This document shows positions 1-34,214 of a DNA stretch of 34,214 nt, in pieces. The notes beneath the pieces were generated by a model that worked only from the letters and a program-made list of their open reading frames with translations, had not been told where the DNA came from and searched no databases. Positions within the stretch are counted from its first letter, which is position 1. Every line of letters begins with the position of its first letter. The position numbers and the translations under genes are program-made. The DNA comes from a virus. The stretch covers positions 1 to 34,214 of IMG/VR virus record IMGVR_UViG_3300028045_000047. One strand, 5' to 3'.

Positions 1-135
1 ACCAGACAGGCATAAATCCTTTCAAGACTCCCCCAGATATTTTTTACTTAGCTTAAGCAAGCTATCCGCAATAAATGCCCTAAAATTTAACTAAGCTCTG
101 CATGATAACGTTTAGGCCGCGGATAAACAGAAGTC
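1..135. repeat. Contig-end overlap (same as 34080-34214)
   Basis: Positions 1-135 equal 34080-34214 except A127 against G34206. This shows a circular assembly. P22-like phages package by headful and have permuted, redundant ends, so the overlap is probably an assembly cut and not a fixed terminal repeat. The cut falls inside structured RNA copy 1. Confidence 0.9.
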
Positions 136-285
136 TATGCCATGGTTTTGTGGTTTGGCCGACCAACAGGGATGTGAAAAGGTATTCTGATATCGTTATG
201 TAGATAAAGCTTAAAGAACGTTTAGGAAGGGTAAAGCCCTATCCATGGTAAACGGTCTATATGACCACTATGTCTATAAATAATA
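1..285 (+). ncRNA. Large structured RNA, copy 1, 3' part
   Basis: Continuation across the circle of the RNA that starts near 33895; total about 470 nt. It aligns with the reverse strand of 22508-22946. Conserved blocks include the AGCTTAAGCAAGCTATCCGC stretch at 51-69 and GGATGTGAA near 170. Helices seen: 34022-34031 with 7-16 (10 bp); 63-69 with 119-125 (TATCCGC/GCGGATA); and a 3' hairpin with 219-224/249-254, 225-227/242-244 and 229-231/237-239. Copy 2 keeps the outer 3' stem with different bases (AGACCTTAA/TTAAGGTCT). Homology stops at a shared ACTATGTYTATAAA block near 285. No terminator follows, so it may be a leader of the small genes from 371. The family is not recognised; structure is inferred by eye from two sequences. 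Confidence 0.75.
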
Positions 286-305
286 TAACCCCATAATCCA
301 ACCCT

Positions 306-319
306 CTGGTTAGACCACT
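306..319. promoter_or_regulatory. TGGTTAGACCA operator, site 1
   Basis: CTGGTTAGACCACT, with an exact dyad TGGT-TAG-ACCA. It lies just after the 3' end of structured RNA copy 1 and about 50 bases before the first small gene. It is one of six intergenic copies; the proposed binder is the GntR-like protein at 26947-27180 (inference). Confidence 0.55.
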
Positions 320-370
320 AAGCCTAATAAACTAAGGTAAAGTAGCGTTAACTAATCAAGGGGAATTGTG

Positions 371-514
371 ATGAAGAATATTGATGCAGTTAGCAAGACA
401 AACTCAAATAAAGAGCCTATAGATATAAAAAGCAACGTGATAATTGTTATTGTTTTCGCTGTAGTGTGTGCGGGCGAGTCCATTACGGATGGGTTGATTT
501 CATGGATTTTATAG
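371..514 (+). CDS. Small single-pass membrane protein (47 aa)
   Basis: ATG follows AAGGGGAATTGTG, a good Shine-Dalgarno (SD) leader. The protein has a polar N-terminal half (about residues 1-20) and one hydrophobic segment at about 22-34 (NVIIVIVFAVVCAG), then a short tail. It overlaps the next gene by 13 bases, as expected for translational coupling, and is the first gene after structured RNA copy 1. No family is recognised. A small holin, antiholin or other membrane-acting peptide is possible but not shown. Confidence 0.6.
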   Translation: MKNIDAVSKTNSNKEPIDIKSNVIIVIVFAVVCAGESITDGLISWIL

Positions 515-8454: not shown

Positions 8455-8469
8455 CTGGTCTAACCACTA
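8455..8469. promoter_or_regulatory. TGGTTAGACCA operator, site 2
   Basis: CTGGTCTAACCACTA, the dyad in reverse. It lies immediately after the stop of the 90-aa gene and 21 bases upstream of the -35 at 8490, a position suited to an activator. Confidence 0.55.
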
Positions 8470-16393: not shown

Positions 16394-17016
16394 TGGCTGA
16401 CAAATTCACCAATTCTATAGCATCATTAAATCTTAGTGCGTCAAATATTACTAGCCTTACTGGCTGGCCTGACATAATGACAGATGACTATCTGACAAAC
16501 CTTCAAAACTTTATTGAAATTGCTAGAAATTCTGACGATTTGCTTGAACAGGTAGAGCAGAACGAAGCTAATATTATAGTCAACGCCGCCAACATTGCGA
16601 CTAATGCTGACAATATTACGACTAATGCTGACAACATTGCGACTAATGCTGACAATATTACGACTAATGCCGATGACATATCGACTAACGCTGACAATAT
16701 TATCATTGTAGCTGATGACCTGTCCGACCATGAATTGCTAAACAGCGCCCACGGGGTAACAGGTGATAACGTTGGTACTGAAGACTTTGCTCAGCCAGTA
16801 GTTGGTGGTGTGGTACTTTTGGCCGCATTGATAGCTGACCTTACAGCCATAGCAACGGCTGACATAGCAGCGGCACCCGTTGCATACGACCAAGTTTACA
16901 CGCAATCAGTAACCGACCTGACCAACGAAAACAAAGCAAAAATTAATGAAATAGTGTTAAAGGTTAACGCGATTATTTCAGGGCAAATCTCAGCAAACCA
17001 AATGGCGGCAATATGA
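16393..17016 (+). CDS. Tail needle, gp26-like trimeric coiled coil (207 aa)
   Basis: Seals the tail tip and pierces the outer membrane. ATG 16393 in a TAATG overlap. Residues 1-50 form a head-binding part, about 60-112 a regular seven-residue repeat N-I-[AT]-T-N-A-D (trimeric coiled coil), and the rest a C-terminal helix (DLTNENKAKINEIVLKVNAI). P22 gp26 is 233 aa with the same layout. Length of the needle could change by gaining or losing 21-bp units. Confidence 0.8.
   Translation: MADKFTNSIASLNLSASNITSLTGWPDIMTDDYLTNLQNFIEIARNSDDLLEQVEQNEANIIVNAANIATNADNITTNADNIATNADNITTNADDISTNADNIIIVADDLSDHELLNSAHGVTGDNVGTEDFAQPVVGGVVLLAALIADLTAIATADIAAAPVAYDQVYTQSVTDLTNENKAKINEIVLKVNAIISGQISANQMAAI
16591..16695 (+). 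repeat. 21-bp tandem repeat in the needle gene
   Basis: Five near-identical 21-bp units, such as AACATTGCGACTAATGCTGA plus C, each encoding one heptad. Units alternate GCG and ACG codons, so the larger repeat is 42 bp. A degenerate sixth unit lies at 16570-16590. Confidence 0.9.
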
Positions 17017-21789: not shown

Positions 21790-22323
21790 TTAAATATCAT
21801 ATTTTTGTGTAATGCTTTTAAAAATAAATTCCGCATCATAACTAAAAATATCCTTTGGTCTTTCTTTAAAGCATACGATTTTATTAGACGAGCTAGGTTC
21901 ATACGCATAGTAAGTATTACCACCTGACATTGTAGTTGTTGCTGTGCCATTAGTATTTACAGTACCGTAAATATTATTACCATAGGCATTCGCGGTGACA
22001 TAAGTATTAGAATTTGCATTTGTTGTGGCAATTGTTGGTGTAGTATAAGAGCTTTCTGTTGTATACTTGTTAGAGCCTACGACTACAAAATAGTTAAACC
22101 CACTTTTAATGGCTAACTCTGCACTCCTAAGAAGCGTAAAATCGGTTGCACGCTCCATCTCTGTGAATTTATTGCCAACAAAGGAAACAATAAAAATATT
22201 TTCATCAAGTTGTGTTTCTGAATATCCACCAGAAAAACCTCTATCTTGGTAGGGAGTGCTACAACCTACAAGCAAGGATATAGCAACAACCAGCAACTTA
22301 AATTTAATCAAGATAATGTCCAT
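21790..22323 (-). CDS. CC0125/CC1285-type lipoprotein (177 aa)
   Basis: Start taken at ATG 22323; an upstream TTG (22398) would overlap the preceding gene. Signal peptide KFKLLVVAISLLVG with lipobox LVGC, acylated Cys21. The mature part begins STPYQDRGFSGGYSETQLDE and FIVSFVGNKFTEMERATDFT LLRSAELAI, the signature of the CC0125/CC1285 family of bacterial lipoproteins. A Thr/Asn-rich low-complexity stretch (about 105-140) follows. This is a bacterial-type gene on the strand opposite to the virion operon, so a moron for a lysing or carrying cell. Role unknown. Confidence 0.75.
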   Translation of the reverse strand: MDIILIKFKLLVVAISLLVGCSTPYQDRGFSGGYSETQLDENIFIVSFVGNKFTEMERATDFTLLRSAELAIKSGFNYFVVVGSNKYTTESSYTTPTIATTNANSNTYVTANAYGNNIYGTVNTNGTATTTMSGGNTYYAYEPSSSNKIVCFKERPKDIFSYDAEFIFKSITQKYDI

Positions 22324-22363
22324 TTTTTTTGTATAAGAAACATCATCATAACTAAATAAATCT

Positions 22364-22495
22364 TTATATAATTTTTTTATTGTAATTTTGGTCGTCAATC
22401 CAAGAGATAACTAACGCCCACATAACAATAGCGATGATATAACCTGTGGGCAGTAGAGCCAAAAATATAATATCAAAGAAAGTACGGTCATTCAT
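22364..22495 (-). CDS. Tiny single-pass membrane protein (43 aa)
   Basis: ATG 22495 (minus) follows AAAGGTGATAAAA. The peptide has one transmembrane helix (IIFLALLPTGYIIAIVMWAL, residues 9-28) between short polar ends (MNDRTFFD and DDQNYNKKII). It is the first gene after structured RNA copy 2, its SD beginning only a few bases after the last conserved RNA block. Same arrangement as the 47-aa gene after copy 1, but with no sequence similarity that I can see. Confidence 0.55.
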   Translation of the reverse strand: MNDRTFFDIIFLALLPTGYIIAIVMWALVISWIDDQNYNKKII

Positions 22496-22507: not shown

Positions 22508-22946
22508 TTATTTTTTTATAAACATAGTATCAACAAGACCTTAATCATGGATGGAGGTTAACCCCAGCCTTAAGGTCTATTTACCGTTATCATGCAATCG
22601 CAGTAATCAGGTAGCCTATTCACATCCTTGTTGGTAGCTAAAACCATATCCCCATATGACAGAACCTGTTTATCTCGCCTTGAAAAAGTCGTATTGCATC
22701 GGTACTAAATTGAATTTAGGGCATTTTACGCGGATAGCTTGCTTAAGCTAATGGGTTATCTCTGTGGGAGTTTTGCTGAAAGGATTTGTGTCTTATAAAC
22801 TATCACCAAATAGACACAAAAAAGGGTTTAAAATGTAACCCCGTTGGAAGTGGGGTGTAGTTCAGCGAGTGATAAAAACCCTCCGAGATTACAATCTAAA
22901 CCCACTCGTAAACTACTTTCAGCAGCTTCCACACCGCTTTTTACGT
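22508..22946 (-). ncRNA. Large structured RNA, copy 2
   Basis: About 440 nt on the minus strand, aligning over its whole length with copy 1 (33895 through 285). Helices kept with changed bases: pseudoknot stems 22904-22909/22865-22870 and 22890-22903/22824-22837; 22812-22820/22785-22793 (TTTGTGTCT/AGACACAAA against TTTATGCCTG/CAGGCATAAA in copy 1); and the 3' stem 22570-22578/22536-22544. It lacks about 40 nt of inner hairpins that copy 1 carries. Its promoter is at 22952-22980. No terminator separates it from the 43-aa gene. Confidence 0.78.
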
Positions 22947-22951
22947 TCTGC

Positions 22952-22980
22952 ATTGTACATATCAGTACACAACAAGACAA
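22952..22980 (-). promoter_or_regulatory. Promoter of structured RNA copy 2
   Basis: Minus strand TTGTCT (22980-22975), 17-base spacer, TACAAT (22957-22952). Same geometry and same distance to the RNA as the copy 1 promoter (TTGAGG-17-TAGTAT). Confidence 0.7.
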
Positions 22981-23003: not shown

Positions 23004-23017
23004 AGTGGTCTAACCAG
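23004..23017. promoter_or_regulatory. TGGTTAGACCA operator, site 3
   Basis: AGTGGTCTAACCAG between the divergent structured-RNA copy 2 promoter (minus) and the tailspike promoter (plus). It could control both. Confidence 0.55.
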
Positions 23018-33015: not shown

Positions 33016-33029
33016 CTGGTTAGACCACT
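33016..33029. promoter_or_regulatory. TGGTTAGACCA operator, site 5
   Basis: CTGGTTAGACCACT starting four bases after the preceding stop. It covers the -35 place for the -10 GATAAT at 33048. Confidence 0.55.
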
Positions 33030-33554: not shown

Positions 33555-33737
33555 ATGAAAGAAGATATTGCTAGCTTAATGGCTAAAGTAGAAGAGCTTG
33601 AGGGTGTGATTCATCATTGTTGGTTATATTCTGGATATGGAGATTGCGGCTCTAATAAGATGACAGCAGCCGAAAAGGAATGCTATTTAGGTGCTGTTAG
33701 AGATGTGTCTGATAGAATTGACAAGCAATCTAACTAA
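33555..33737 (+). CDS. Small coiled-coil protein (60 aa)
   Basis: Start at ATG 33555 because AAGGAGG, a perfect SD, is 11 bases before it; the frame also opens at 33507. N-terminal helix KEDIASLMAKVEELEGVIH, then a cysteine-containing middle (YGDCGSNKM) and helix AEKECYLGAVRDVSDRI. Unknown. Its 3' end contains the consensus promoter at 33718. Confidence 0.65.
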   Translation: MKEDIASLMAKVEELEGVIHHCWLYSGYGDCGSNKMTAAEKECYLGAVRDVSDRIDKQSN

Positions 33738-33746
33738 GTGTATAAT
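33718..33746 (+). promoter_or_regulatory. Perfect sigma70 promoter
   Basis: TTGACA (33718-33723), exactly 17 bases, TATAAT (33741-33746). Both hexamers are consensus. The -35 lies in the last codons of the preceding gene. Expected start near 33753. Confidence 0.9.
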
Positions 33747-33752
33747 GCGCGA

Positions 33753-33817
33753 CATTAACGAAAGCTCATCACAGCTACCCTTGTTAGTCAAATCTTCCCC
33801 TTAATTGGGGTTTTTTT
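33753..33817 (+). ncRNA. Candidate 65-nt small RNA
   Basis: Sequence from the expected start of the consensus promoter to the end of the T tract at 33817 contains no ORF with an SD. It ends in the terminator hairpin. A strong promoter with nothing but about 65 nt before a terminator suggests an sRNA or a transcript meant to be antiterminated into structured RNA copy 1. Confidence 0.5.
33797..33817 (+). terminator. Intrinsic terminator
   Basis: CCCC-TTAATT-GGGG and seven T. The stem has only four pairs, as with the 1815 terminator, so readthrough may be notable. Confidence 0.8.
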
Positions 33818-33830
33818 GTGGCTAAAATAA

Positions 33831-33844
33831 AGTGGTTAGACCAG
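33831..33844. promoter_or_regulatory. TGGTTAGACCA operator, site 6
   Basis: AGTGGTTAGACCAG, 15 bases upstream of the -35 (33860) of structured RNA copy 1. Site 3 holds the same place relative to copy 2 (24 bases upstream of its -35). Confidence 0.55.
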
Positions 33845-33859
33845 ATTGGTTTTTTAATG

Positions 33860-33888
33860 TTGAGGTTATTTCACATATCGTGTAGTAT
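33860..33888 (+). promoter_or_regulatory. Promoter of structured RNA copy 1
   Basis: TTGAGG (33860-33865), 17 bases, TAGTAT (33883-33888). Same arrangement as the copy 2 promoter although their sequences differ, supporting function. Confidence 0.7.
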
Positions 33889-33894
33889 ACGCCT

Positions 33895-34214
33895 CGTTAC
33901 AAAGCGGTGCGGCAGTCGCTGAAAGCATTTTGTGAGTGGGTTTAGATTGTAGTCTCGGCGGGTTTAAAGTCACTCACTGAACTGCACCCCACTGTCAACG
34001 GGATTACATTCTAAGTCCTTTTTTATGCCTGCTTGGTGATAGCCTCATAAGCTATAAGGTTTCCCTATACCTACTGTCCACCAGACAGGCATAAATCCTT
34101 TCAAGACTCCCCCAGATATTTTTTACTTAGCTTAAGCAAGCTATCCGCAATAAATGCCCTAAAATTTAACTAAGCTCTGCATGATAACGTTTAGGCCGCG
34201 GATAAGCAGAAGTC
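33895..34214 (+). ncRNA. Large structured RNA, copy 1, 5' part
   Basis: First about 185 nt to 34079, then the overlap region repeated at 1-135. Helices: GTGAGT/ACTCAC (33932-33937, 33972-33977) and the 14-base pairing 33938-33951 with 34005-34018 (13 of 14 pairs, counting wobbles) cross each other, so an H-type pseudoknot. Then TTTATGCCTG (34022-34031) pairs with CAGGCATAAA (34086-34095, also 7-16). Each helix also forms in copy 2 with paired or wobble changes. Family not recognised. Confidence 0.78.
34080..34214. repeat. Contig-end overlap (same as 1-135)
   Basis: Second copy of the 135-base end overlap, with G at 34206 where the start has A at 127. Eight bases from the contig end, so the difference may be a sequence error or a minor variant. 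Confidence 0.9.

Follow-up and report, generated by a model that had tools for sequence, protein, structure and literature searches.

A pseudoknotted domain heads a hitherto unlisted family of long, structured RNAs from marine phages

Results

Two copies of a structured RNA in one phage genome

The window, that is the whole stretch of DNA analysed here, is IMG/VR record IMGVR_UViG_3300028045_000047, positions 1-34,214. PHROGs named terminase, portal, scaffold and major head protein genes on its plus strand. Positions 1-135 repeat positions 34080-34214 with 99% identity (one difference) and, because of this near-exact end repeat, the genome is probably complete, circular or terminally repeated, the record having been cut inside the first of two copies of an RNA of about 410-440 nt. 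As the repeat is 135 bases long, copy 1 crosses the record end and resumes at base 136. It is followed by small ORFs and then by the terminase/portal/scaffold/head operon. Copy 2 lies on the minus strand with two minus-strand ORFs (22364-22495 and 21790-22398) and is flanked by plus-strand genes. The features of both copies are collected in Table 1.

Table 1. Features of the two RNA copies in the window
Feature	Position	Strand	Remarks
Promoter-like TTGAGG-17-TAGTAT, copy 1	33860..33888	+	8/12 consensus positions, below the scan threshold
P1 hairpin	33904..33919	+	33904-33907/33916-33919; kissing sequence of the loop 33911-33915; 100% of cells paired in alignments A3 and A2
P2 (stem 1 with outward extension)	33925..33985	+	extension 33925-33931/33979-33985
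P3 (stem 2, extended)	33938..34018	+	33938-33957/33999-34018; 19/20 positions paired
Inner helix in the P3 loop	33960..33989	+	GGGT 33960-33963 with ACCC 33986-33989; 91.7% of cells paired in A3
CTGTC, partner of the P1 loop	33992..33996	+	pairs with GGCAG 33911-33915; one G-U, the weakest of the family
T6 run directly 3' of P3	34019..34024	+
tRNA-acceptor-like hairpin	34022..34095	+	TTTATGCCTG/CAGGCATAAA; slot that holds tRNAs in relatives
Start of the 3' domain	34127..34148	+	TTAGCTTAAGCAAGCTATCCGC; equals 48-69 through the end repeat; conserved in relatives
Continuation of copy 1 beyond the end repeat (3' domain)	1..262	+	helices 139-145/243-249 and 113-119/253-259
Promoter-like TTGTCT-17-TACAAT, copy 2	22952..22980	-
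5' pseudoknot domain, copy 2	22822..22937	-	P3 22884-22903/22824-22843; model R1 98.1 bits, copy 2 itself being part of the R1 alignment
T-run and short acceptor-like hairpin, copy 2	22785..22823	-
3' domain, copy 2	22539..22750	-

Several other elements were observed in the window. A near palindrome, TGGTTAGACCA, occurs at 307-317, 8456-8466, 23006-23016, 33017-33027 and 33833-33843 (five exact copies, seven with one mismatch allowed, 0.46 expected), including sites just upstream of both RNA copies, and from its sequence looks like a phage operator. Upstream of copy 1, a perfect TTGACA-17-TATAAT promoter (33718-33746) is followed by a CCCC-TTAATT-GGGG hairpin with T7 (33797-33817), which makes 33718-33817 a candidate for a short phage RNA; the same hairpin precedes the RNA in locus L018. 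Tandem repeats of 21 bases lie within a coding sequence at 16570-16715.

Interleaved stems in the window copies

The original prediction proposed an H-type pseudoknot, formed by two interleaved stems, at the 5' end of this RNA in both copies. In copy 1, stem 1 (33932-33937/33972-33977) pairs at all six positions and stem 2 (33938-33951/34005-34018) at 13 of 14, the exception being a T-T mismatch. Stem 2 of copy 2 (22890-22903/22824-22837, minus strand) likewise pairs at 13 of 14 positions with the T-T at the same place; its stem 1 (22904-22909/22865-22870) is present but, with an outermost A-C, has only 5 of 6 pairs and is slightly weaker than had been implied. The pair swaps seen between the two copies of stem 2 (G-U/G-C, U-G/U-A and G-C/G-U) are each one-sided since the 5' strand is identical in both copies, and two-sided changes appear only after homologues are added. 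The T-T mismatch is not conserved beyond the two window copies, stem 2 of L006 being paired at 14 of 14 positions.

None of 2000 dinucleotide shuffles of either copy attained the score of stem 2, whereas 90 and 387 of them did so for stem 1 alone. From the window alone, stem 2 is therefore sure and stem 1 plausible only; being unremarkable in shuffles of single sequences, stem 1 rests on homologues. Nested folding prefers another structure than the proposed fold in both copies, the pseudoknot-free minimum free energies being -33.7 and -35.5 kcal/mol versus -25.5 and -28.5 kcal/mol once the proposed fold is reduced to its nested helices. To these last values can be added, before pseudoknot penalties, the stem 1 duplex (-12.9 and -16.5 kcal/mol) and a loop helix described below (-7.3 and -8.1 kcal/mol). 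It is covariation, and not energies alone, that decides the fold.

Distribution of the RNA family

Searches by BLAST and by sequence pattern located the RNA in Vibrio phages 1.242.O, 1.240.O, 1.110.O, 1.275.O, 1.122.A, 1.131.O, 1.085.O, 1.054.O, 1.029.O, 1.167.O, NF, phiV208, vB_VaM_H2 and Seahorse, in Pseudoalteromonas phages H105/1, HS1, HS2, HS5, BS5 and Pq0, and in IMG/VR contigs. A covariance model, R1, was built from the type I alignment A3 (see below) without P2 and the loop helix. At E <= 4e-4 it matched 37 times, in 36 of the 55 sources, and 16 of these matches fall at loci whose subtypes A3 does not include. L176 and L177 escaped the model and are kept as members by eye and BLAST. 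On whole records, R1 matched 27 of 30 at E <= 1 (W09, W17 and W18 were missed) and found two copies each in the window, in NF and in contig G009. L178 also carries the RNA. One of the 27 whole-record matches, in Vibrio phage VCO139 (E 0.22), was judged not credible. On reading the DNA, L010, L020, L142, L143, L150, L151-L153, L163, L164, L166 and L167 were set aside as chance or unrelated matches, and at least 120 stretches from a loose pattern scan (L022-L141), which was too permissive, were kept outside the model search and the reading.

R1 found no match in 369 gammaproteobacterial genomes and 2 more, nor did BLAST against plasmids, both searches being run without a positive control. Rfam scans at gathering thresholds returned tRNAs only, with no match to GOLLD or ROOL, and permissive scans added only weak matches well below gathering scores. 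The GOLLD model (RF02032) matched 0 of 19 records at E <= 1 and the ROOL model (RF03087) 0 of 19, the control genomes (14 for GOLLD) being silent as well. No description of this RNA was found in the open-licence PMC literature, including two papers on the Nahant collection. The pseudoknot forms the 5' end of the long structured RNAs of this family, which marine bacteriophages carry and which had not been listed before.

Covariation supports an elaborate 5' domain

Comparison of the members predicts a fold that exceeds a plain H-type knot, with an extended stem 2 (P3, 20-23 bp across the family), an inner G-C helix and a third, loop helix. The end pair of the inner helix varies between U-A, U-G and C-G in A3. 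The loop helix joins the loop of the 5' hairpin P1 to a downstream segment, which in type I members follows the inner helix and precedes the 3' strand of stem 2, and in type II members lies in the loop before the 3' strand of P2.

A total of 39 rows was extracted, corresponding to 33 distinct 5' domains. Among 25 distinct P3 strand pairs, a mean of 12.96 of 14 positions is paired, compared to 8.40 when strands are swapped between sequences, and at least 13 are paired in 21 of 25 own combinations versus 22 of 600 swapped ones. At least six Watson-Crick pairs of the P1-loop helix form in 31 of 32 distinct cases, compared to 222 of 992 swaps and 626 of 6400 shuffles, in a test that takes the longest match anywhere between the P3 strands and so sets a lower bar than a fixed register. 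Only window copy 1 falls short, with 5 bp of which one is a G-U. For P2, at least eight contiguous pairs are found in 21 of 33 domains, versus 304 of 1056 swaps and 1274 of 6600 shuffles.

Two alignments were scored. In A3 (type I, 16 sequences, 37 pairs without P2), 91.3% of cells are paired, compared to 81.1% when letters are dealt out and at most 54.1% when strands are slid, and 17 pairs show two-sided change; by helix, the values are 100% for P1, 94.2% for P3, 91.7% for the inner helix and 83.2% for the loop helix, one tentative extra pair being poor (43.8%). In A2 (type II, 8 sequences, 41 pairs including P2), 98.8% of cells are paired (100% in P2 and the loop helix, 97.8% in P3) and 13 pairs show two-sided change. 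P2 keeps 7 of 7 pairs in 8 of 8 type II sequences, three with two-sided changes. Sliding the register lowers paired cells to 38-55% over A3 and A2, a comparison that favours the proposed structures, as they were derived from these same sequences. P2 was counted by the tool in type II only, because MAFFT alignments of P2 across type I are poor; elsewhere it was counted by the strand-swap script.

These counts bear on the possibility that the pairing is chance complementarity, or that a coding region was mistaken for RNA. Stem 1 alone, not unusual in shuffles, would be compatible with chance. However, covariation refutes this explanation, and any one reading frame stays open across the domain in at most 3 of the 33 distinct homologues, so that we regard it as having practically no chance of being correct. 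As to whether homologues might lack a stem, stem 2 is present in each of the 25 distinct strand pairs, with 11-14 of its 14 positions paired, and stem 1 in nearly all members, but stem 1 is missing in one small subtype (L158, L176 and L177), where stem 2 and the loop helix remain. The interleaved topology originally predicted is thus borne out by covariation in relatives: the pseudoknot is real, and the case for the structure, as read from compared sequences, is strong.

A promoter upstream and a U-tract downstream of the 5' domain

A σ70-like promoter with at least 9 of 12 matches is found within about 80 nt upstream of the domain at 35 of 37 loci, compared to 55 of 740 random positions; the two loci that fall short include copy 1, with 8 of 12. 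Promoter-like sequence just upstream agrees with the predicted location of the knot at the 5' end of the RNA. On the other side, a T-run (T5-T7 or TTTTGTTTTTT) comes directly after P3 at 35 of 36 loci, all but HS5. A G-C-based stem followed directly by a U-tract, as in an intrinsic terminator, is therefore found at 35 of 36 loci; the P3 loop of about 40 nt is atypical for such an element. A terminator scan of the window called P3 as a whole in neither copy: none was called at copy 1, and at copy 2 only a small internal hairpin. Nor did the scan call any terminator at the 3' ends of the two window copies, and terminator-like signals downstream of the U-tract were found at only 3 of 36 loci.

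The 5' domain, with a promoter before it and a U-tract after it, might by itself be a small phage RNA that terminates after about 125 nt, the tRNA and 3' modules being separate followers. That 5' domains are exchanged independently of the rest (see below) would suit such a small RNA, but the 3' domain behind it shows covariation, keeps its place in the order and lacks a promoter-like site of its own (window 1-480). We consider this arrangement unlikely.

A tRNA slot and a variable 3' domain

The order shown by the family is promoter, structured head, U-tract, tRNA slot, structured 3' domain and, commonly, an accessory gene. The slot holds either a tRNA or what is left of one, or else an acceptor-like hairpin, whose stems vary (GTGTCTG/CAGACAC, ATGCCTG/CAGGCAT, GTACCTG/CAGGTAC). 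tRNA genes lie inside the RNA at 11 of 36 loci, recognised by ARAGORN in L005, L007, L008, L011, L015, L144, L165, L172, L178 and L201 and by Rfam only in L018; the Seahorse RNA contains three (Trp, Arg and Gly). Some slot hairpins may be decayed tRNAs, as suggested by remnants resembling a T-arm (GGTTCGA-TCC) in L011 and L154. A tmRNA reading was rejected, as ARAGORN recognised tRNA genes or nothing at these loci and no tmRNA.

The 3' domain exists in several versions across the family. In the version of the window, the helix GTCATGG/CCATGAC is conserved, and 17 pairs are predicted in all, five with two-sided change. The variants of the 3' closing helix match each other (TTAGACACG/CGTGTCTAA, TTAGATACG/CGTATCTAA, TTAGACCCG/CGGGTCTAA and TAGGCCG/CGGTCTA), and the corresponding swap test is weak, with at least seven pairs in 8 of 12 own versus 45 of 132 swapped combinations. 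In Vibrio phage VCO139, a tRNA-Arg is followed by about 930 bases without genes (L162, 1070-2000), which contain CATACAGATTA and GTAGTCTGTA segments resembling those of L013, L016 and L017; from these segments, the stretch is perhaps another large RNA.

Module exchange and downstream genes

Starting with the 3' strand of P3, loci L006 and L155 share 97.5% identity along 526 nt, and their 5' domains differ. This exchange suggests that the head may be a unit of recombination; modules are mixed across the family. Downstream, a start codon lies 23-51 nt after the 3' marker at 9 of the 16 loci in which the marker was found (35 loci listed); it should be noted that the ORF script chose a wrong or distant ORF at several loci, for instance W2 and L012. 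Among nine recognisable downstream proteins, picked by hand, are five methyltransferases (C5 in L006, D12 in L021, N6/N4 in L159, L011 and L174, the last just below the cut-off), three metallophosphatases (L154, L173 and L199) and one T5orf172 protein (L014). Most other loci have unassigned small ORFs behind the RNA.

Discussion

The reading that we tentatively put first, as a fair contender rather than a settled matter, is that of a leader whose stem 2 and U-tract form a terminator or pause gating read-through into tRNAs and cargo. A long leader RNA would be made from its own σ70-type promoter. As it emerges, the P1-loop pairing and P2 would form first and keep the 5' strand of P3 in place; P3 would close once its 3' strand emerges, just before the U-tract, acting as an intrinsic terminator or strong pause, with a pseudoknotted RNA of about 125 nt as the default product. 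Read-through, by phage-timed antitermination or by failure of the knot to close, would yield a long RNA with tRNAs, 3' domain and cargo mRNA, from which RNase P would free the tRNAs. Since few or no terminator-like signals lie past the U-tract, the long form should run into the next gene. We infer termination, read-through and tRNA release, as well as any oligomer considered below, from these arrangements.

The structure, the promoter of its own, the U-tract, the tRNAs inside, the cargo and the exchange of heads all count in favour of the leader, a model that expects a separable control head, as the exchange of 5' domains between L006 and L155 would have it. Against it stand the P3 loop of about 40 nt and the many A-U pairs, unlike compact terminators, the scan of the window, in which P3 as a whole was called in neither copy, and the placing of a terminator before tRNAs and an elaborate conserved 3' domain, which is odd unless read-through is common. 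In addition, HS1 and HS5 (L174 and L175) lack the U-tract and retain the rest, and the downstream genes have no common function.

A promoter-proximal structured phage RNA with diverse cargo behind it also recalls put-like antiterminators, whose nascent RNA stays on RNA polymerase so that terminators in the cargo operon are ignored. HK022 putRNAs are such promoter-proximal elements, described in PMC9378689 as about 70 nt long with two stem-loops; the RNA reported here differs in size, in its interleaved stems and in its 3' domain of at least 150 nt. An antiterminator of this kind seems to us very improbable.

Coming closely behind the leader, and a real if lesser possibility, is a trans-acting ornate phage RNA resembling GOLLD or ROOL. 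The full-length transcript would then be the product, with a tRNA-carrying linker between the 5' and 3' domains and loop-loop helices that hold one molecule together or join several. GOLLD and ROOL have kissing loops and form nanocages by cryo-EM (Nature 2025, PMC12286853). That report describes GOLLD as a phage or prophage RNA with several pseudoknots, loop-loop contacts and members often longer than 800 nt, phage tRNAs sometimes lying near or in its linker, and ROOL as a phage RNA near tRNAs, with pseudoknots and kissing loops. The present RNA is also phage-encoded, with several pseudoknots, a covarying loop helix, tRNAs in its middle as in the GOLLD linker (11 of 36 loci) and neighbours without shared function. 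Moreover, the loop pairs of the window copies fit only their own copy (cognate -7.3 and -8.1 kcal/mol, crossed -3.3 and -1.1 kcal/mol), and the two copies in NF, and likewise in G009, bear different loop pairs. However, such differences between copies are unsurprising, because only 222 of 992 swaps reach 6 bp and most random members differ. The RNA is shorter than GOLLD or ROOL and has no terminator at its 3' end. Neither model matched, in the 19 records (where positive controls were silent) or in the Rfam scans. With respect to GOLLD, the tRNA slot here is flanked by a head of 125 nt and by a 3' domain with several unrelated versions; with respect to ROOL, size and helices differ. The abundant noncoding transcript of Vibrio phage ICP1, about 800 nt long, is likewise large; ICP1 differs in that, according to PMC7567579, it has no tRNAs.

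A more speculative extension, which we hold to be rather doubtful, is that the family would be a third class of tRNA-carrying ornate phage RNAs, unrelated in sequence to GOLLD and ROOL, in which the P1-loop helix would serve as an intermolecular self-recognition code. Paralogues in one phage would then assemble separately, with tRNAs or their remnants held in the middle.

Taken together, these results describe a new RNA family, outside Rfam 15 by the scans used here, that joins the few large structured phage RNAs. It connects the tRNAs of phages with ornate RNAs and with accessory genes, DNA methyltransferases among them, three subjects that are usually treated separately. Its hosts are culturable Vibrio and Pseudoalteromonas phages and, since the family is present in isolates, the role of tRNA-associated phage RNAs can be addressed by ordinary RNA-seq of infections.
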